NCBI RefSeq assembly: GCF_020520425.1
Contig: NC_079492.1
Location: forward strand, 145,545,861-145,609,860
Reading direction: 5' to 3'
Source of the DNA: Spinacia oleracea
Lineage: Eukaryota; Streptophyta; Magnoliopsida; Caryophyllales; Amaranthaceae
Length of the DNA stretch: 64,000 nt
In this document: positions 4,192 to 54,696 of the stretch, piece after piece
How the letters are laid out: every line of letters begins with the position of its first letter
Position numbering within the stretch: the first letter of the stretch is position 1
Translations under genes and position numbers: made by a program
Notes under the pieces: model-generated
What the model was told of the DNA's origin: nothing
Databases searched by the model: none
Seen by the model: the letters and a program-made list of their open reading frames with translations, nothing else

Positions 4192-5083
4192 CATTTTCTT
4201 TATCAAAATTCAGAATTCCTATACATGTGCAATTTGAAAGGTTATTCAACAATTAAACCATAAAAATCTCACCTTAGAAAGGAGGGAGAAATGAATTGAT
4301 CAATAAATTGAGAGTGTTTGTTGAGAGGGGAGAAAGTCAGACGAGAAGAACGGGAAGGAGGTCAAAGGCCGAAGATAATGGGTACGAATAAATAAGGATT
4401 TTTTCGTCATTAACTTATTCTATGTTTAGGATATTACGTAATGCATTTAGTACTTGCGTCATTTAATTACCTTCATTTTTGTTCTCTTAGATTCAAACAC
4501 CTTTGGTTAATTTGCAAATTATTATAAGCACAATTTCAGATGCATGTAGGAAATCCATTTTTTTCCTGGAACAACGACGATCTTCTTATAATGGTTTCAG
4601 TTATAGTTAAAAAATATTAAAAAATTTATGGAAAATTTGATGGAAATAAGTCAACATTTGGGCCGTCTATTAAAAATAAGTCATGATTTTGATTATATTT
4701 TAATTTGAATAAATCTAACTTTACCACCCATCAATTTTATACAAGTCAAACCAACTTGTGACCTCGTTGCAGGTTATAATACTTGTCACTTGTTTTTTTT
4801 TGAAAAGAAATGGCGGGTTTTTTAAAGCATATTTTGACATGATTTTATGCAACTCTTTAGCACGTTATTCGAGATTATATTTTGACTCGTACACCAAGAC
4901 ACGCTAGCCGAGGAAAATTTTGATATATTTTTTTTCGAGAAAATCAGCTTAATTTTCTAAAACAAATCATCTTATTTTTATTTATTTTTAAATCTACAAA
5001 AATACAGGAAAGAAGGTTGGTCATTTACCCGTAGACCCGGTCATCAGTAACTTGACTTTGTTTGGAATTGATGGGTGCTAACT
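4192..5083. other. intergenic, no gene seen
   Basis: AT-rich sequence between a SINE and a CACTA element. No long frame, terminal repeat or RNA gene recognised. Confidence 0.55.
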
Positions 5084-6420
5084 CACTACTACAAAAACAG
5101 GAATAAGTAACGCCGAATAAGGTACGGTTAAGTGTGATAAGCGTTTCCAATGATCATATAGTACATTTTTCTTTGATAACAGTTCTATGGGGGAAAGAAT
5201 ATAGAACGGGTACCTTATTTAACAGTTTCATATTCTTTTACCCTGGTAAAAGAATAAAATAATACGGAGTATTATTAAATCTATACATAAATGCATACTA
5301 TTTTCTATAAAAAAAATACAAAATAACTATATCAGTATTGGCGGCAGACAAAACTCAAATTAACTCTAAGAAAATGAAATATCTCCCGCAAAAGACAAAC
5401 CTAAAGCCCATAATTAATAAACTCAAATAAAAGTGTTATTACTAATTACTAAAACTAATATACTCATACCCTAGCCCACCTTCCCCATTAGGCATTAGCC
5501 GCCAACTCCTCCACTCCTCCGTCTATCTCTCTGTTTTACCTATGTGTTTCTCTTTCCCCATTTCATAAATTACTAGTTTAAGAAATTGTCATTGTTCCAT
5601 TTCGATTTCCACGCCAATACTCCTCACACATGATTCTCATTTCTCAGCAGATTAAATCATTGAGAAATGGTTTGCACTCTTTCGATTTCTGTATATTCCT
5701 CACAAGCTTAATATATGATTTAATGTTTATTTGATCAACCCCTTTTCCTATTTCTCATCATTAATATAGGTTTTCTTGTCTTGCCTTTAATTTTAATTTT
5801 CGAATTGAATTACAGGAGATCTGATTGAATTTTGGTTATTTTTATGTTCTCTTTAATCGTCAGACTCGCCGCCGTCATGATTGCCGCTCCACCATCATAT
5901 CTCCGACTCCTGTCTTGTTGCTGCCCCAACTAACACCGTTTTTAAGGTTTAAGGTAACATAATTTTTACAAGTAAAGTGCATGACGAAGATAGCTGGTTA
6001 TGGGTGCTGGCATTTTAACGCAATCCTTATCCAATCCCAACTTTAATTATGTTATTTTGACCTTTAGTGCATGACGAAGATATCTGGTTTAAACAAGACA
6101 ATTATATTTACAAGGGGGGATACTAGGATTCGAATCTATTACTGAGTATATATTTATTGGCATTGACTAATTTTATCAAGTCATGTTGCATATTGGTTGG
6201 TCCATTTAAAACTAGATTAAGAAAATGTCAAACGTTTGTGTGGGACTATGCTGCTTAATTGTCACAAATTGCCTTGAACATTTTCTAATAGCTCAAAATC
6301 AACTTGATTATTACTAGCACATAACTCTGAGTCTCTGATATTAGAAATTAGAACAGGACATTAGATGGGAATATTTTGGTATCTCTTGTTTGTTATGGAA
6401 CTAATAACAAGTATGAAGAT

Positions 6421-6608
6421 ACCAATTGAGGTTGGCATGAGTGGTTAAGGGCCTCTTGCTCCTTAACCAAGGTCTCGGGTTCGAGCCTTGGGAATGGAAA
6501 AAATCTCAACTGGGAGGGATGTTGCCCATCGAGGTACCCATGCAAACTCCCGCGGGAGATTAGTCCACTCGCCTAAGGCGGTGGGAACTTCTCGTAGTAG
6601 AACAAAAA
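6421..6608 (+). mobile_element. tRNA-derived SINE, copy B, with target duplication
   Basis: The A box (GGCATGAGTGGTTAAGG) and B box (GGGTTCGAGCC) are well preserved, followed by the family body and an A-rich end. An exact duplication of about 18 bp (AATAACAAGTATGAAGAT) flanks it at 6403-6420 and 6609-6626. The insertion lies inside the CACTA element, directly upstream of the E1 fragment, so it postdates the capture. It belongs with copies at 4003-4191 and 43997-44064. Confidence 0.92.
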
Positions 6609-6628
6609 AATAACAAGTATGAAGATGA

Positions 6629-6895
6629 ATGAAGGAGCTTATATTCAATGACAAAGCAATTGAATATGATGAATATTGCCATAATCATAAGCCTCCTATT
6701 GGCTATTGGCTATTGCTTTCATCAAGTCACAAGTATGTGGCCTATTTGGTAGTGTCTTTTGTAGACTTTGGGCCTGAGTTTATTGTACTTGACACAGATG
6801 GTTATGATCCACACGCCGGCATAATTGCATCTATCATTAATGAAAATCCTGCCCGGTTATTCTGGTGTGATTGTAAAATTATAAACACTTTTTAG
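6629..6895 (+). pseudogene. fragment of ubiquitin-activating enzyme E1 gene inside CACTA element
   Basis: The open frame contains KAIEYDEYCHNHKPPI and then FVDFGPEFIVLDTDGYDPHA followed by GIIASIINENPA. These match the consecutive E1 (UBA1-type) stretches known as the EYDDYCHxHQPPI and CDFGPEFTVxDxDGEEPHTGIIASISN region in the N-terminal half of the enzyme. The 20 residues between the two blocks do not match E1 well, and the frame runs off into unrelated residues and a stop instead of the expected DDERLEF continuation. It covers well under a tenth of the roughly 1080-residue enzyme, lacks the catalytic cysteine and adenylation residues, and cannot make a working E1. It reads as an exon captured by the transposon. 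Identification is from remembered family sequence, not a search. Confidence 0.8.
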
Positions 6896-7671
6896 ACAGT
6901 TAATGATTCCAACTCAACAATTGGAGTATGTCAACAACTAGGTAGCCAATTTATTTTTCTCTTCCAAAAACTTAAATGCTTCAATTATTGGTTCTTAATC
7001 TTAAAGTCCTCTAATTCTCTTTTGGTGATTTCAGGTTTAAGTCTAATGCAGAGCAGCGAGATAAAGTTCATAGTTCATCGTTTTTTTTCCAGTTGCAGTC
7101 AAGTGAAAGAGCTAGGAAATATTTGAAGAGGCGAAGAACTTATAAAGAATTATAGTTTGGGAAGTGGGAACATCAATTTATTCATTTTTTGTTTTTAATT
7201 TCAGTTGTAAATTAGAGTTACTTCGTAATATGTATGTTTGTGTATTTGAACTTTATTGTAATATTAACACATATATACAAGAAGTTTTTGGAAATCGTAT
7301 ATTAAGAATTGTTTAATTTTTTTTTTTTGAAATAAATAAGTATATAGTACGCCTATGTATGGAAGATGTTCTGTATCTCAATATTTAACAAGAAAAATAG
7401 ATGACGGTTATGTATGGAAGGTGCGCTTTATTATAGAGTATAGGAGACAGTTATGTACGTTAACTGTTCTATATTCTTTTTTCATTTTCTGATTTTAGGA
7501 AGGGAATAGAGGACGCTTATCTCTTATCACTGTACTTTATGATTAGGTATATAAAACGCTTCTTTTACCCGTTTTATAAATTTTATAGCGCGCTGAGTTG
7601 GAGAACGCCTCTAAGGCGTCCTATAAAGTGTATTTCAACAGTACTATATGCCCCTTTTTGTAGTAGTGACT

Positions 7672-8578
7672 TATTCAGATATAATAAAAAGCATGATTTG
7701 TTTTTAATAGACGGTCCAAAGGTTAACTTATTCCCATCAACTTTTCCAATTTTTATTACTTTTATGATTTTTTTATCATTTTTATTAAAAGGAAATGTAA
7801 CTAAATACTTTAAGATTGTTGATCTTCTCTCACAACTGAAACCCTAACTTATTTCAAATATTTTTAAAAAATTGCTATCTATGTACGGATTTACAACTTG
7901 GTAGATATGGGTGTGATAACCTAAATTAACAACATAATTCGTATCGCGATTGAGTTCCTGCTAAATGTGAGGAGAAGAAAACTATTAAAAAGATCTGCTT
8001 GACACAAGTCACATAATCCACAAACTCTTGAATCTCCCACAAGAGTTTGTCCCTGCAAAATATCACAACCTCTATGAATTAATTACCACCTCAATGTAAA
8101 CATGAAATATATTATTTTCAACGGCTAACAGAAACTATAAGTTAAGTAATTGATCCAACAAGTAGAGGCATTTCAATATTGAAGGTTCGACTAACAACGT
8201 TATTGTCTAGGCGATCTCTAATAACTAGACTTGGCTTATTGAAATGAACCAACCAATCAAAGTTAAGCTTTATAGTACTAGGGGCAGAATAGGTCTATGC
8301 AACTCGATGGGGTGGTACACTGGTACATGGAGACTAGCTATGTAGGAGAGTTATTATGAATATTCGCACCCAAGGAATCTAGACATTTACGCGCACATAT
8401 TAGTTACATAAACTTCCTAAATGATAAATATCATGTAAGAGACAAGAGTTTGTCTAAAAATGTGAGCATTACGAGTTTCCATATACTCAATAGAATGTAT
8501 AATCTTTTTAGCCGAAAAGATAACATAATTATGATTTTTATTGACATCTTATCAACAATAATTGAAGTCAAATTTATA
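7672..8578. other. intergenic, no gene seen
   Basis: No convincing frame, terminal repeat or RNA gene. It lies between the CACTA element and a degenerate Stowaway element. Confidence 0.5.
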
Positions 8579-9915: not shown

Positions 9916-10003
9916 GGTTACACCTTTATTCCTCGACTAAATTCAGTTCAAACTCCCGGAAATCTTGAATTCGTAGAAATTAATCCACAATTTGTCGAAA
10001 GCT

Positions 10004-13000
10004 ATGAAGAGCAGGTCGAATCGCCACCCGACATCCGACCCGCCGGATGACTGGGTAGACGGTTCATGGACAGTGGATTGTATTTGCGGCGTCAATTTCG
10101 ACGACGGCGAGGAGATGGTGAATTGCGACGAGTGTGCCGTCTGGGTCCACACTCGTTGCGTTCGTTTCGTTAAAGGAGAGAAATCATTCGCTTGCGACAA
10201 GTGCAAGAGTAAAGATAACAGGAACGATGATAGCGAAGAGACGGAGGTTGCTCAATTGCTTGTTGAGCTGCCCACCAAAACAATCAAGATGAGTAGTGGC
10301 AATAACCATAGTATCAGGAATAATAGCAACGATGCGTTTACTTTTAGCAATTATCCTCCACCTCCTCCTCTTCCGCCTCGGCGGCCGCCACACCGGCTGT
10401 GGGTGAACAGACCCATGGAAGAAAGGGTACATGTACAAGGTGTTCCAGGTGAGGGTGATGTTCCTACTCTTTTTCAAGGGTCACCGACCGTTTTCGGGTC
10501 GAAGTTGTGGAAGTGTTCTGGCTATGTACCTAAGAAGTTCAATTTTAAGTATAGGGAGTTCCCCTGTTGGGAGACAGAGGAGGATGTTGATGATGAGGCA
10601 AAGGCGGACCAAAGCCCTGAAAATGTAATTGATAAAGGGGCTGGGGTTTTGTTCTCTTTGTCTAAAGAGAATGTGATGCTTAACATGAGGGGTGGTCAAT
10701 CTAAAGGTGGTGCTTTTGATGGGAAAGCTTTCAAGGATAGGAAATGGGATAATGGGGGTTCGAAGAAGTTAAGTTCACCTGGTTTGTCGAAGAAAGAAAA
10801 GGGTATGGGTCGGTCAATTGTGCTTCATTGTAGTAAGAGGAGTAGGGAAGAATTAGGGTTATCTAAGGATCGCAGTGGGAAGAAGAAAATTAAAGGTAGT
10901 CTTAAAGAACAGGATGGGAAGAAGGAGAAAGGTCATGGTTTTAAATCAGGTATTTCTGGAACTCTTAATACTGTTTTATTAATATGCCTATATTTTTTGC
11001 TCTCAATTTCATGTTCATTGATATTGCTATTGTTTTTTTATTTTTTTATTTTATGTTAGTTGTCATACATTCAAGTAGTGCTAGGCAAGCTGAAGTGTGT
11101 GAAAGCAAAGGCCACAAGGTAGAACCAAATGCTCACCTAGCTGAGGGTAGTAACATAGAAAAACCCAAGAGAAATACAGCTACTGATGAGGGAAATTTGG
11201 TACTTAGGTGCACAGAAGTGTCTGGACTTGGTTGTTCAAGTGAAAAGAGGGTCAAAGCAGAAAAGCCTAGCCATGATGCTACTGATAGCTCCCAGAAGTC
11301 TTCTAAAACTGAAGCAGTTTCGTTGCTAATTGTGGAGGACGGTGTCTCGAGGAGCCCTGTAAAAAAAGAGGTATGTCTGCTGATTATAGTTTTTCCCATT
11401 GTGCACTTATGCTGAATTTTCCTGTTAAACATGATTTTTTTTGTTTTGTTGAGGTTGATTAATATTCTCGACATCGAAATATGAAGGCTATCTGTATATA
11501 TATGTCGTTGTTAATGTCTATTATATCAATCTTTAGTCTGTCCTTAAGAGTCTGGGCATGTGCTTTTCTCCTGATGTTCACTTGTCCTGGATTTATATGG
11601 TTCATAACTTATGGTAGCTACGAATTTAACTATCTGAACTTATTGTCCCTAGTAACTTACTGGAACTGATCCTCAAAATTATCTGGTTGTGAACTTATTG
11701 GAATTTTTACCCCTTAATTTATCTTAACTTATTTCTTCTGAAATCAAGTTTTTCTAACGTGAAAAGGATAGCCTTTGTACCAGTAACTGAAATGAATAAA
11801 TGTGCTGGCCCAGCTTCTGGTTTGTTAAATTTTCTTGTCATGCCTCACTTGTTTAACCATATGAAATGTCACATTGTATCAAGATTCCCTTGGCTCTAGA
11901 GTGATTTTCGTATGAGATTGTTTAGTACTATATAGAATGATCGCTACCGTTCTCTTTGTTGTTCTTTATGGATATCTGAAAAAAACCTTCCCCTCTTTTG
12001 CTATTAATTCTTATCCCTAAAGCTATGTATCAAATAATAGCTATTTGAATTCTTCTCCCTCAAGATATGTAACTTGGGTTATGTTGTGGTGTTTGATACG
12101 GGTTCCGGATGTGTATAAGATTCATCGAGAGTCATAGTTGCTCAAAATTTTATAACATGGAGATTCGAGACTATGCCCAAAGTTTGGTCATGACCCATGG
12201 GTACTCCTAGAGGCTAGAATTTCCTTTGATCTTGAAAGATGGATACGATTTGATAGTCCAAAATATAAGCGTGTTTGATATTCCAAAATTCTTGGGCCCT
12301 AGGTCTAATCTATGACCTATACCATTTTGTATGTATAAATAAATGCTGACAATTCATCATCCGGGCAACGAGTCTAGTTAAAGAAATTACTACAGCTGAC
12401 CTGTCAAACGGGTCGGTCGGGTCGGGTTGTAAAAAATTATTTTCGGGTTCGGGTTGAATCGGGTCGGTCACTTTCGGGTTCGGGTTTACAAATGCTTGTT
12501 CAAGACCCAGAACATTCGGGTTCGGGTCGACCCAACGGGTTGAGAGATTTTAAAACGCGCATTATATTTTCATTAATTTGGGTGCTAAAAATACACAATA
12601 TGGGCCTAAATTAACAAATTTTCCTACACAAGTTTATATTTAGTCAAACTCAACCATAAAATGACGTATCATTCAAATTAAAATCATATTACACACAAAA
12701 ATAGTAAAAACAACGTGTTTATTATGCTTAAATTTTCTCATAATCTCATTTATTACTATAAATACAATGATTTTCAATCGGTCGGGTCTAAAACGGGTTC
12801 GGTCGGGTTTTGACCCATTACTTTCCGGGTTGCTCGGGTTCGGATAAAATCGGGTTACGGGTCACAAAATCTTGTTCAGGACCCAGTATTTTCGGGTCGG
12901 GTTCGGGTCGGTTTTCGGGTCGGGTCCATTTTTGACAGGTTTAAGCACAAGTGTGCAACTAGCCCACTACTTTATCCAAAAAATTGTTTTTGTCAATCTT

Positions 13001-43868: not shown

Positions 43869-45711
43869 TTAAAGCACCATCATCATAACAATCAGAATCA
43901 ATGAAGTGATTGAGAAACCAATTGAGGGATATCTTTCCTGCAAATTCACACAGAAATAAACGTTAATATGATTCAAGTTTACGCAAATTAGATCATTTTT
44001 TTTTTTTGGTTCTACTACGAGGAGTTCCCACCGCCTTCGGCGAGGTAATCTCCCGTGGGAGTTTCGCAAATTAGATCATGAATACAGGACAAATGCACTT
44101 TTCATTGTTATGTCATGTTCTTTTGTATATGCATTTTCGTGACTTGGTATTTAATTAATCAATAATTTAAATTCTACTCAAAATGGCAAACACAAAAATT
44201 CGTAAGAATAAAAAAAGTTGAAGCGAATCTATACCAATCTGTCACAGACACGAATCTATACTTTTACAGTTCTTTTTAGTGGGGTGGGCAAGATGAGGTA
44301 CACTTTAACAATGAAGAATCAAACAGAGCAATTATTTTAATTTATCTTAAAAAAAAAATTGAAGAAAAAGCGTACCGTTGAGGAAGAAATGGAGAGATAC
44401 CCAGAAGAGGAGGGACCACCACCACTTCCACCACCACCAGCGGCGGTTTCAGCAGTAGAAGGAGGTACATAAGCATCAGTACCACCACCAGACGCATTAC
44501 CAACAGCTTGAATAGTAGGAAACCCTAACGAATAAGCCGGTGTACCATCTGGTTTAAACAACCCATAATTCCTCTCAGAAGTTGGCCCAGGCTTCAAATT
44601 CTCGTTAAACAAGGCGAAAACGAACACATTCAGATCACAGTTTGGCTTCATTGGCGTACCCTTTTTCTGCGTCGCCAAAAGCTTAATTAGGTTTCCGTTA
44701 TACTTCTTAGCGTTTTCCGGGGTGGCGCCGACCTCGTCTTCATCTCCTTTAGACGGCCAACCAGTTTCCGACACCTGTACTAAGATCTTCTTGTTGAAAG
44801 TGGGGCCCATGGCGGCGTATACGGCGTCCACCTGAGCGTACAACATGTTATCATAATGCAGGCTAGAATCCGGGTCGACTAAAACTTGCGGTGTTTTCGC
44901 CTGAAAGAGAACATAATCCAGATTCACTTCTTCTGGGTTTCCTTTATAGGCGAAATACGGGTATGCGTTTATCAAAAACGGGGATCCAGTTTTGGCGTGA
45001 AATGTCAGTATCTGAGTTATACAACCGGCGACGTCTTGCCGGAAACTGCCCGCCGACGGCGGATACGATGTGTCGAGGATTGCGAGATTGTGTGCAGTAG
45101 TTACCCACACATTGCGATCCAAACCTAGGGTTTGCAGCGCGGAATGCATGTTCTGCATTGCCGGTAACAAGCTGGTGGTTAAAGCGGTGTCGTTTAGAGC
45201 AAGCACTTCGTTTCCGATGAGGATGCAGGTGATGTTTGTATCAGGAAGATAGCTCTGAACATTCTTCTTAACCCAATCAATGGCTTGTTTTGGATCTTTT
45301 GCCATTTGTGGTAAGTCGCCGTTGCCGACGGTGACGGTGAATTCGATTCCGGTGTTGGCAAATGCTTTGAGTACTTTCGGGTCGGCGTCGTAGAGCTTTA
45401 CTTTGGTTGCTCCGATTGCTTTCACTAGTGGTACTACTTTTTCTGGGGAGGGAAGATTGTTGGCGATTTGGCCGTAGTTTATTCCTAATGACACCACTCT
45501 AACTGGCATATTACCTGATTCAGCAAATAACAGAGTAAAGGGTTAGATTAATTGCGATTTAAATTATGAAAAAAACGAGTAAGAATTAAGATTAATTACC
45601 TGAAAGAAGAAGGATTACTGACAAAAATAATGATAATGAGAAGCATGGTGGTGATGATAGTGATGAATGTGGGGAACTTGTGCTTCTTCTATCTCTGCTG
45701 GGGGATTCCAT
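43869..45711 (-). CDS. GPI-anchored GH17 beta-1,3-glucanase, 3 exons, 439 aa
   Basis: Exons on the minus strand: 45600-45711, 44376-45514 and 43869-43937, GT-AG and in frame. It hydrolyses beta-1,3-glucan (callose) at the cell surface. A signal peptide (CFSLSLFLSVILLLS, residues 23-37) precedes the GH17 barrel beginning LGINYGQIANNLPSP. IGNEVLALND holds the proton donor Glu140 and VSETGWPSKGDEDEVGATPE the nucleophile Glu287; NENLKPGPTSERNYGLF is also typical. No CBM43 module follows. A Gly/Ser-rich spacer leads to SSGYLSISSST, and the 22-residue last exon adds ERYPSIGFSITSLILIVMMM and the end, a hydrophobic GPI-anchor signal. The layout matches Arabidopsis endo-1,3-beta-glucosidases 11 and 14. 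If intron 2 is retained the protein ends VRFFFNFFFKIN. The ATG at 45711 was chosen because it opens a frame that splices cleanly into the barrel. Confidence 0.93.
43997..44064 (-). mobile_element. 5'-truncated SINE in glucanase intron 2
   Basis: On the minus strand it carries only the last part of the SINE seen at 6421-6608 (CTCCCACGGGAGATTACCTC-type body, GGCGGTGGGAACTCC, TAGTAGAACC) plus an A tail. An exact 15-bp duplication CGCAAATTAGATCAT flanks it at 43982-43996 and 44065-44079. The tRNA-like head is absent. Confidence 0.88.
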
Positions 45712-50080: not shown

Positions 50081-53000
50081 CGGAAATGATAAAGGTCGCA
50101 ATATGCGACCTTTAAGCCGTGTCACAGTGGTGACATGGCACGCCTATGTGTCATAAATGTATTTGGAAACTAAAATATTTAGATTATATGACCTATTATA
50201 CATGTCATAATAATGGTAGGAATATCTTAATATTCTAATTTACAAATTGAATAATATAATTTTTTATTTCAGAAAAATAATTCTAATTTGTATAGAAAAT
50301 TAGAAAAAATACTTTTAATTATTTATATGATTAATATGATATAGGAAATTAAAATAAAAAATACATTTACTAATTTATACTTAGATTAGTAAATCATTAC
50401 AGGCAATAGGTCATATAATCTTAACCTATGAGACTGTTGGCAGAAGTTCATTTCAATGAGAGGCAACCTATGCGATTACATGCAATCATTACAGGCTACC
50501 AAGGTTAACCGTACATTAGAAAATTACATGTTATAAAATGGTTGTACATTTCATAACGCAAGGAAGCCTGTAATGATTGTACATTTCATAAGGTTAACCA
50601 ATTAGTAAATGTAATGATCGTTCCATACAGGTTACCAAGGTTAACCGTACATTAGAAAATTAAAAAATTAGGAAAATGATTTGTCTTTATTGGTTTACTG
50701 GGTTCTTCTTCTTCTCTAGATGGGATGATGATGGTGTTGTGAGAAGCGAGAGAGCAATGGACGCCTTTAGAGAAATGATAGATGATTGTGGATTGCATGA
50801 TTTAGGGTACAGAGGCTCCATTTTTACGTGGCAACGGGGATCGGAACCTGGGCATATTATCCGAGAACGGCTCAATCGGTTTCTTGCAGGCACGGAGTGG
50901 GAAGACATGTTCCCATAGACTATGGTAAGGCACCTTCCCATATACTCGTCGGACCATGCACCGATACTTATGAGTACTGATGCTAGACCAAGACAGTCAA
51001 ATAAAATGAAGAGGTTTCACTTTGAGGCTTTGTGGTTAGCAAGCGATGAATGTCAAGGGGTGATCAAGAACGCGTGGGAAGGGGGTGGGAGTGCGTCTCT
51101 TCCCACTCGAATAGCTCAGTGTGCAGAGGAGTTGAGTAGCTGGGCAGAGGCTAGTTTTGGTGGAACAAAGAAGAGGATTCGGGAGGCGGAAAAGGAACTA
51201 ACAATGTGGCAAAGAGGTGAACCAGATGCAGTGATGATACAAAAATGCAGTGAGTTATCAGAAGAGCTTGATGAGTTACACAGGAAAGAAGAAACTTACT
51301 GGCATGCGAGGGCACGTGCCAACGAGCTTCGTGATGGGGACAAGAACACCGCATATTTCCACCATAAAGCAAGTTCGAGGAGAAAGCGCAATCAGATTGT
51401 AAAACTCAAAAATAAAGAGGGCGAACTGAAGTGTGGGGAAGAGGAGTTACAGAAAATAATTGAGGCCTACTTTGCGGAATTATTTACATCAAGCGAACCA
51501 ACTAACTTTGATGATGCTACTGCTGGCCTGTCCGTAATGGTGAATGAGGAGATGAACGTGGCCCTTAATGTGCTCCCAACTGCAAGGGAAATACACAATG
51601 CTCTCAACCGAATGCACCCCAATAAGGCACCGGGAATTGACGGTATGCACGCTCTCTTCTTCCAAAAATGCTGGAATATTGTGGGCACGACGATTGTAGC
51701 TTTTGTCCAAAATTGGTGGGAAGGTACTGTAGATATTGTTGAAATTAATAAAACATGTATAGTGCTCATTCCTAAGTGCAGAGAACCGTTACAGATGGGT
51801 GACTTTCGCCCCATTAGCCTGTGCAATGTTGTTTATAAAATCATATCTAAGGTCATGGCGAACAGGTTGAAGGTAATCTTGCCGGAACTTATTTCTTATC
51901 ATCAGAGTGCATTCGTCCCCGGAAGGCAGATTACGGACAATGCTCTAGTTGCCTTTGAAATTTTTCACGCAATGAAGAGGAAGGGAGAGGGAAAGAGAGG
52001 TACAATGGCCTTGAAGTTAGACATGAGTAAAGCGTATGATCGTGTGGAGTGGACGTTCTTAGAAAGAGTAATGTACAAAATGGGGTTTGGTGATGAATGG
52101 GTTCGAAGGGTAATGGCTTGCTTGAGCAGCGTGTCCTTTGCGTTCAAGGTAAATGGTAACATTTGTGGTTCTGTGGTTCCGTCCCGAGGGCTAAGACAAG
52201 GTGATCCGATATCCCCGTATTTATTTCTTTTGTGTGCGGAGGCTTTCTCATCTCTAATAAGCCGAGCTGCAGTGAATAAAGAAGTGCATGGGGTGATTAT
52301 TTGCCGGGAAGCTCCTAGAGTGTCGCACCTATTTTTTGCCGATGATAGCATTTTATTTGCTAGAGCCACTTTACAGGAGTGCTCAAAGATTGCCAGCATT
52401 ATTGACATATATGAACGTGCATCTGGTCAGAAAATTAATTTTGATAAATCCGAAGTGTGCTTTAGTAAGAACGTTGAGGGAACAAGAAAAGGGGACATTC
52501 TGCGGGTCTTGAACATGAGAGGGGTGGATAGGCACGAGAAGTATTTGGGGCTCCCTACAATCATCGGAAGGTCAAAGAAAGCGGTGTTTGCATGCCTTAA
52601 GGATAGAATTTGGAAAAAGCTACAGGGATGGAAGGAGAAGTTGTTGTCTCGCCCGGGAAAGGAGGTGCTTATTAAGGCGGTGGCTCAGGCGATTCCCACA
52701 TATATGATGAGTATTTTCCGCATCCCGGATGGCTTACTTGAGGAGATGAACTCACTGTTTGCAAAATTCTGGTGGGGGTCGAATGACACAAGACGTAAGA
52801 TGCATTGGTTGAGTTGGGAGAAGCTATGCCTTCCAAAGTCTATTGGGGGTATGGGTTTCCGGGACTTAAAAACGTTTAATCAAGCCTTGCTTGCAAAACA
52901 AGGCTGGCGTCTAATGTGTAATACCTCTTCACTGGCTTACAAAGTATTAAAGGCGAGATATTTTAAAAACACTGAGTTCTCTGATGCAGCGCTGGGTCAT

Positions 53001-54696
53001 GACCCGAGTTATGTTTGGAGGTCTTTGTGGGGAGCTAAGGCATTACTGCTGGATGGGACCAAATGGAGGGTCGGAGATGGGTCACAAATTAAAGTATGGG
53101 ACGAGGCTTGGTTACCTGGTGAGTCCTCCTCGATCTGTTGTACCAACTCCGAATGTCAACAGTCCTGCTGATTTGTGTGTTGGAGATTTAATTGATAGTA
53201 ATGAGTGCACATGGAATACGGATGCCCTGAAGTCTGAAGACCCATTTTACTGACGAGGATATAGAGTTAATCAAAGAGATCCCCTTAAGCAATAGACGAC
53301 CTCCTGATGCTAAGTTCTGGTGGCCAACGAAGGATGGTAACTACACAACTCGGTCGGGGTACTGGTTGGGTAGACTTGGCCACTTACAGGGCTGGGCACA
53401 ACACTATGGGGGTGATAACCAGTCAGTGTGGAAGGTGATATGGAGTATTGGTGGACCGCCGAAGCTAGGCCATTTCCTGTGGAGAGCTTGCACGGGCTCT
53501 CTAGCTACTTAAGGGAGGTTGTTCGAACGTCATATAGCTGATTCGGGTATGTGTAGCTTATGTGGGGAGAGACTCAAGAATCTATCATTCATGCAATCTT
53601 TATGTGTCCCGAAATCGCTACAGTTCAATCAAGTAGTAAATGAGGCACCCAAGGACTCCTTCATGGAGCTATTTGCCGGGTTGCTTTCCAAGCTTGATAA
53701 AATCGAGCTACTTTGCTGTGCAACAATAATGTGGTCTTTCCGAAACTCTGTAATATTTGGAGTGCAACAGGGGGTCGTGGGTTTTCTGAAGCTGGTAGGA
53801 GATTATGCAAAAGCGGTTTTTGGCCGCGCTGCAGGGGTGTCTGTTCCAACAAGGTTGGGCTGGCAAGTTCCAGAACCGGGGAAGGTGAAAGTTAATGTGG
53901 ATGCCGCAGTGATGGTGGAAGGAGTAACTGGTTTGGGTGCAGTGATAAGAAGTGATACGGGGCAGATACTAGCAGTAGGTGTAAGGAGAGTCAAGGCACG
54001 CTGGAAGGCTGACTTAGCTGAAGCTATGGCAGCTCGATTTGGTCTGCTGGTGGCCCGTGACATGGGATACAGTGAGATAGAATTTGAGTGTGATGCTATC
54101 AATGTGGTGAAATCCATAAGAAACAGGAGCTTCGGGAGGACGCCACTGGATCTCATAATAGAAGATGCTCCTCCTTTAGTTTCTTTTCTTGCTCACATAT
54201 ATGTACGTAGAGGTGGGAATGCTGTAGCCCACTTAGCAGCTAGACTAGTACCTCCTAATGGGGATATGATGAACATGTATTCAAAGATTGCATCCCGCAA
54301 GGTATTTCAACCTTGGCGGAGCTCGATTTAATAAATTAACAAGGCAGCTTAGCCTTTCCCTCAAAAAAAAATATGGGATGATGATAATGGTGCCACTAAA
54401 TTGATGTATTTTTTTAATTGCACAAAAATATATTATTAAATTATAATTTTTATTTTTTAATGTGTAATTTATGAGATGAAAGGAAATATATATTTACTAT
54501 CAATATAATAAATATTTATTTCCTTCTTTGTATTGATTGCCTTATTTATATAATTTCATAGTAAAAATATTGATTGATAGTAAAAATAAATTGATGACGT
54601 GTAGCCTACATTGTGCTTATTTGTACCAATGAAATGCCGACATGTAAGATTGCGACAACACAATGTTGTCGCAACTTGCGACCTATATCATCGCCC
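50081..54696. mobile_element. Mutator-like element containing a LINE
   Basis: The ends are GGAAATGATAAAGGTCGCAA on the left and, complemented, GGCGATGATATAGGTCGCAA on the right, about 23 of 30 bases alike. A perfect 9-bp duplication TTTGATTAT flanks the unit (50072-50080 and 54697-54705). Without the LINE it would be about 960 bp and non-coding. The left arm holds direct repeats (CCAAGGTTAACCGTACATTA at about 50498 and 50638) and an inverted pair around AGGTCATATAATCT. Confidence 0.82.
50737..54372 (+). mobile_element. 5'-truncated L1-type LINE with reverse transcriptase and RNase H
   Basis: The 5' edge falls within the endonuclease domain (MDAFREMIDDCGLHDLGYRG, then SSDHAPILMS). The reverse transcriptase follows, with NKAPGIDGMHALFFQ, DFRPISLCNVVYKIISKVMA, LRQGDPISPYLFLLCAEAFS and the catalytic FADD at 52335-52346. 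A zf-RVT-like region and a plant-type RNase H (VNVDAAVMVEGVTGLGAVIR through FECDAINVV) end near 54331. A run of nine A closes it. The flanks ATGGGATGATGATGGTG (50720-50736) and ATGGGATGATGATAATGGTG (54373-54392) are a target duplication differing by 3 bases. An in-frame stop at 50916-50918, a frame change after about 53120 and further breaks before 53519 make it non-functional, besides the missing 5' part. Confidence 0.92.

Follow-up and report, generated by a model that had tools for sequence, protein, structure and literature searches.

Positions 5084-7668 of the window (the whole stretch of spinach DNA that was analysed, C6:145545861-145609860, 64,000 nt) raise the question of how a piece resembling ubiquitin-activating enzyme E1 came to lie between the ends of a transposon. 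The original prediction took this tract for a CACTA element with a captured piece of an E1 gene. We searched the genome (894,210,420 bases in 242 contigs) for the element, for the E1 piece and for related elements. The core of the prediction is borne out by strong nucleotide similarity to a host gene, and we consider it very likely that 5084-7668 is a non-autonomous DNA transposon of the Pack-CACTA type that carries a captured host E1 piece. Its parts are as follows (positions in the window).

5081..5083, no strand: target-site duplication ACT, left, from flank comparison
5084..5097, plus strand: 5' terminal inverted repeat CACTACTACAAAAA, exact match
5084..5383, plus strand: 5' terminus and subterminal region, inverted counterparts of which lie in the 3' end; also in a 28-kb element on C4 and in L054
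5384..5954, plus strand: leader-like family tract, with candidate donor AAG/GTAAC (5953/5954) read by eye
5955..6402, plus strand: interior; a query of 5960-6415 matched the six copies only
6403..6420, no strand: 18-bp target duplication of the SINE-like insert, left copy
6421..6608, plus strand: nested SINE-like retroposon, 188 bp
6609..6626, no strand: 18-bp target duplication of the SINE-like insert, right copy
6629..6895, plus strand: 88-aa open frame over the captured piece, partly out of the E1 frame
6650..6852, plus strand: captured E1 exon fragment; donor L045, reverse complement of 4872-5059
6853..7034, plus strand: family stretch up to candidate acceptor GTGATTTCAG/GTTTAAG (7034/7035), site read by eye
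7035..7337, plus strand: terminal-exon-like family tract, which contains 7035-7155
7338..7668, plus strand: 3' subterminal region, with 94-95% matches at many other places
7655..7668, minus strand: 3' terminal inverted repeat, exact match
7669..7671, no strand: target-site duplication ACT, right, from flank comparison

Elsewhere in the window lie a LINE-like sequence (50922-54331), in which a 749-aa frame with RVT_1 (7.2e-33) is followed by an RNase H-like frame (RVT_3, 2e-16), and two probable host genes, one with a PHD-finger frame (9992-11059; 1.7e-6) and one on the minus strand with a glycosyl hydrolase family 17 frame (44337-45509; 5.5e-85).

The identical ends and the ACT duplication were found as predicted: CACTACTACAAAAA is exact at 5084-5097 (plus strand) and, inverted, at 7655-7668 (minus strand), and ACT stands on both flanks (5081-5083 and 7669-7671). 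Within the window alone, the ends have two matches at up to two mismatches, a number reached by 35 of 100 shuffles, which makes this count weak evidence. Across the genome, the two strands hold 984 and 981 occurrences of the 14-mer, versus 90 and 79 for the reversed control. The duplication is 3 bp in all six copies described below, and the agreement between flanks ends there, so there is no 5-bp duplication. Target-site duplications of the CACTA superfamily are generally 3 bp long. Two further marks of that superfamily are present, namely inverted termini that begin with CACTA and are exact at both ends, and degenerate subterminal repeats in direct and inverted orientation. Three 42-nt direct repeats lie between 7335 and 7474, the second and third being 71% and 62% identical to the first, and inverted pairs link the 5' and 3' ends (I1, 77%, and I2, 75% complementary). 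Of the frames that overlap 4800-7900, the longest (102 aa) runs across the element end, and none is of transposase size. Pfam found nothing in five frames inside the element, which were searched as single frames, spliced short exons being outside the scope of such a search, and the one Rfam match in 5000-7750 scored 21.7 bits versus a threshold of 108. Together with host coding DNA from another locus, the lack of a visible transposase is what is expected of a Pack-TYPE element.

A protein search with the 88-aa frame (E ≤1) gave ten matches at eight loci, which are the six copies of the element and two host E1 genes, UBAa (136.82 Mb, L045) and UBAb (115.15 Mb, L046), both on C6. By BLASTN, 6650-6852 matched UBAa within one exon (177 of 203 columns identical, 15 gap columns) and 6712-6852 matched UBAb (109 of 141 columns). 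The UBAa frame holding the match contains the Pfam domains E1_FCCH (1.1e-29) and E1_4HB (1.5e-25), and the match lies almost entirely upstream of the FCCH domain. The 88-aa frame by itself matched nothing in Pfam or PDB, which would fit a chance resemblance or a shared motif without any capture. This reading is already refuted by the identity to UBAa given above and by the local score of 6629-6895 against UBAa, which was 284, versus a mean of 25.7 and a maximum of 36 in 100 shuffles; its probability is close to nil.

The similarity predicted for 6629-6895 is real, but the match spans 6650-6852 only. The flanks (5955-6650 with the insert removed, and 6853-7040) did not rise above 15 shuffles each with either E1 gene, and we rejected an E1 match upstream of 6650 or past 6852. 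The match therefore stops far inside the ends of the element and does not continue beyond the terminal repeats. A second E1 exon had been proposed at 7035-7155. On both strands and with both E1 genes this segment stayed at shuffle level (40 shuffles each), the tract is common to sister elements, and the proposal was dropped. A 40-nt BLASTN match of 7307-7345 to the other strand of UBAb (E 0.004) was discounted as a T/A run. The UBAa exon starts at TTGCAG/GTTG (by eye), and the match begins 27 nt downstream and ends well before the UBAa frame closes. Both of its limits are thus inside the exon, and neither native splice site was taken.

Between the two E1 blocks of the 88-aa frame, 20 residues deviate from E1, and they had been described as altered or spliced together from parts. 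The motif CTATTG occurs once in UBAa and three times at a 7-nt period in the window (+14), and the window has one extra A at TGTaGAC (+1). The deviant residues arise because these two changes shift and then restore the reading frame. The segment is accordingly altered, by a tandem repeat and a single base, and not spliced. The other five copies are without 35 nt of the window here (net -21 nt relative to UBAa) and without the extra A. Four of them have a 76-aa frame, and the fifth (L040) is frameshifted with a stop at 47 aa.

We compared 188 aligned nt of the piece with UBAa codon by codon and found 12 differences (5 synonymous, 7 in amino-acid-changing codons). With UBAb as outgroup, three changes, each at a third position, were assigned to the UBAa branch and eight to the branch of the piece, where codon positions 1, 2 and 3 had 3, 2 and 3 (small counts); one was unresolved. 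From this spread over codon positions, the E1 piece looks unconstrained. On these small numbers, UBAa would look like a constrained gene and the piece in the element like an unconstrained copy.

A different reading would give the element a function, as the source of a chimeric transcript or small protein or of small RNAs that arise from the E1 piece and affect the E1 gene of the host. In five of the six copies the frame is open across the E1 piece even though both lineages have indels, a pattern that might point to weak coding constraint, and 188 aligned nt with 12 differences from the host gene are a plausible source of small RNAs. A leader and a last-exon-like tract with a conserved acceptor-like site would suit a chimeric transcript. 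Against a functional product stand the missing third-position excess on the branch of the piece, the frameshift in one copy, the partly out-of-frame reading of the window copy and the position of the exon's native splice sites outside the match. The E1 piece, moreover, sits between the candidate donor (5953/5954) and the candidate acceptor (7034/7035), and splicing of a transcript at these sites would probably excise it together with the intron unless cryptic sites were used. We regard such a function as unlikely and prefer to see the E1 piece as a passenger that would be decaying without coding constraint.

The search for other copies with the same ends, run with the whole element (40 of 1646 candidates scored, so that counts of family ends are lower bounds), found the window copy and five more of full length, on C2, C3 and C4 and twice on C6. 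The five others are 2356-2363 bp long and the window copy 2585 bp. Each has its own 3-bp duplication (ACT, TGT, TGT, TAT, CAT, TAT). The predicted spread of the E1 cargo is thereby supported, as all six carry the piece and, with their separate duplications, exceed the two copies moved with cargo that define a Pack-TYPE element. Pairwise K2P distances were 0.0004-0.0030 within the five copies and 0.0082-0.0096 between these and the window copy. At a substitution rate of 6.5e-9 per site per year, the five copies would be roughly 0.03-0.23 My old and the window copy would have split off roughly 0.6-0.7 My ago. We infer a recent burst that gave rise to the five, with the window copy as a sibling at a slightly greater distance.

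The window copy also differs by the insert at 6421-6608, which the original prediction overlooked and which is absent from the five other copies; AATAACAAGTATGAAGAT occurs twice in the window and once in each of the others. The 188-bp unit has at least 40 genomic matches including itself, all with at least 97% identity (40 of 1193 candidates scored). By eye, it has an A-rich end and what we take to be a candidate box A (6433-6444) and box B (6479-6487), judged against the consensus. ARAGORN found no tRNA in 6300-6700. The insert is SINE-like, a retroposon nested in the CACTA element that the window copy would have received later. By title, none of the papers listed in a literature search dealt with SINEs in Amaranthaceae or spinach.

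The outer parts of the element recur around other interiors. One such CACTA element spans C4:67224136-67252389; it is flanked by ACT on either side, and its 3' end has a single mismatch. It matches the window over 5084-5954 (77.5%), 6857-7196 (84-85%, in two pieces) and 7233-7668 (72%). Its homology ends at 5954, the candidate donor, and picks up again just past the E1 piece. The first gap holds about 21 kb of foreign filling and the last one 5 kb, and this filling includes another exact 14-mer and a retrotransposon gag frame (Pfam 2.8e-7). Among 22 frames of at least 110 aa listed at this locus, the 11 scanned with Pfam (67248367-67250506 left out) showed no transposase. One frame at this locus had sub-threshold Pfam matches to DUF7745 and to the plant mobile domain. 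A DUF4216 frame (Pfam 3.6e-17) lies just outside the 3' end of the C4 element (L067:2208-2651, minus strand).

Four shorter sister elements share the leader (68-70%) and the 3' part (93-94%) with the window. L055, L057 and L058 are 1981, 1975 and 1975 bp long, with duplications CTA, AAA and GCA. L056 (C2:72.269 Mb) is 2219 bp long, shows a single mismatch at the 5' end and has the duplication ACT in its own orientation. An 801-bp element on C6 (119.90 Mb, L054:1177-1977) joins counterparts of window 5084-5543 (82%) and 7345-7668 (94%), and we found no matching 3-bp duplication around it.

The leader-like tract recurs in the sister elements and is the family's own, and an origin from the E1 gene was rejected by the 81% match of 5384-5954 to the C4 element, compared with which L055-L058 match more weakly. 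The acceptor-like 17-mer GTGATTTCAGGTTTAAG occurs at nine exact places in the genome (none for the reversed control), namely in the six E1 copies, two L056-type copies and the C4 element. L083, another element with matching outer parts, has GTGATTTCAGGTTTAAG with one change, so the nine places are not the whole family.

We compared the interiors of four elements with the genome, and two of these hold pieces of host genes. The interior of L056 matched itself, its sister L069 (C2:52.39 Mb, compared without its 5' end) and C6:125925410-125925750. The last alignment had two parts, with 272 of 342 and 34 of 41 columns; the second reached the query end, where the sequence had been cut at the acceptor stretch. 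At this C6 host locus, two exons joined gave Pfam DnaJ at 3.3e-12, while the captured exon alone (L056 peptides) had no Pfam or PDB match. By eye, the piece in L056 includes an exon with both splice sites and the following intron. The intron sequence argues for capture from DNA. For L055 and L083, whose interiors have three and two full matches, we found partial matches of the interior elsewhere and identified no host gene. The L055 interior (L055:1709-2573) is shared by three near-identical sister elements, and parts of it match elsewhere at 70-93%. The same outer parts thus enclose different host pieces, E1 in six copies and DnaJ in two, as in Tpn1-like elements.

The exchanged cargo also bears on whether the E1 piece was captured at all or came in on its own, as a retroposed or fragmentary pseudogene inserted into the transposon. 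The piece lies in one exon and is intronless, and a retroposed fragment would look identical; by itself, capture within one exon fits a DNA template as well as an RNA template. No direct repeat of at least 14 nt surrounds 6650-6852, however, unlike the SINE-like insert, and the sister's DnaJ piece in the same slot has an intron, which favours DNA-level capture in the family. We therefore hold an independent insertion to be very unlikely. Under the preferred reading of a captured host piece, the E1 fragment would have been acquired by a DNA-level rearrangement inside a family element, and the family would retain its outer parts (ends, leader and last-exon-like tract) and swap its interior.

The arrangement of leader, slot and acceptor may be a plain remnant of an ancestral gene of the family. 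It is also conceivable, though rather doubtful, that the family is an exon-trap platform, in which leader, fixed intron slot and fixed acceptor with terminal exon persist by making chimeric transcripts of any cargo. If so, E1, DnaJ and other cargoes would be read out from one reusable frame, with possible small-RNA effects on the donor genes. A leader, slot and acceptor common to a family merit follow-up.

Movement of the element would depend on a CACTA transposase encoded elsewhere in the genome and acting in trans. Transposase_21 had at least 150 genome matches over the cut-off (150 of 1375 candidates scored), two of which, at about 13.78 and 27.40 Mb in the listed part of C1, lie between facing exact ends. 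At C1:27394393-27410634, exact CACTACTACAAAAA ends stand around a Transposase_21 match with a 1092-aa frame, and the score and frame length of this match recur in many other listed matches. This locus is a candidate autonomous CACTA element of another subfamily. As a parent it was rejected, with about 20 terminal nt in common and no subterminal match. A cognate autonomous partner was not found in this single comparison, which counts against the preferred reading of a transposon with captured host DNA.

Capture by CACTA elements is already known from morning glory, soybean, Arabidopsis and maize, and the spinach E1 element adds a member. By titles and abstract openings, we found no report of a CACTA element that captured a ubiquitin-activating enzyme, and our literature search found none of CACTA gene capture in spinach. 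As far as the available text on the En/Spm-type Tpn1 family of Japanese morning glory goes, interiors are replaced by host sequence while termini are conserved, and many elements stand beside few transposase genes (PMC5105172). The spinach family resembles it in being non-autonomous and in exchanging captured interiors between conserved terminal regions. Its shared outer part includes a leader and a terminal-exon-like tract with a conserved acceptor-like 17-mer, which may set it apart.

Pack-CACTA elements of Arabidopsis and maize likewise have CACTA-type ends, a target duplication, no transposase, host coding pieces and clusters of copies, according to the portion of the source available (PMC8903248); they differ in genome and donor gene. 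The same portion gives 5 nt for CACTA duplications in rice and maize (PMC8903248), in contrast to 3 bp in the spinach element. The capture route proposed for Pack-CACTA in the accessible parts of two reports is the joint mobilization of neighbouring insertions (PMC8903248, PMC13317346). Tgm-Express1 of soybean is likewise a CACTA element with host gene pieces that include introns; its partial account describes five host pieces and demonstrated chimeric transcripts (PMC1947982), whereas in spinach there is one identified piece per element, known from DNA. CACTA-like elements of Chenopodium, from the same family (Amaranthaceae) and order (Caryophyllales), also carry captured host fragments (Neprosin, AP2). 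In the excerpted description these lie upstream of the element's coding sequence (PMC8978399), whereas the spinach element has no transposase-sized frame. Beside these systems, spinach offers young elements with different host gene pieces at the same position between conserved outer parts. With such same-slot cargoes, the step of capture can be dated, and a crop with resequenced accessions allows tests of what becomes of captured exons, be it decay, transcription or donor silencing.
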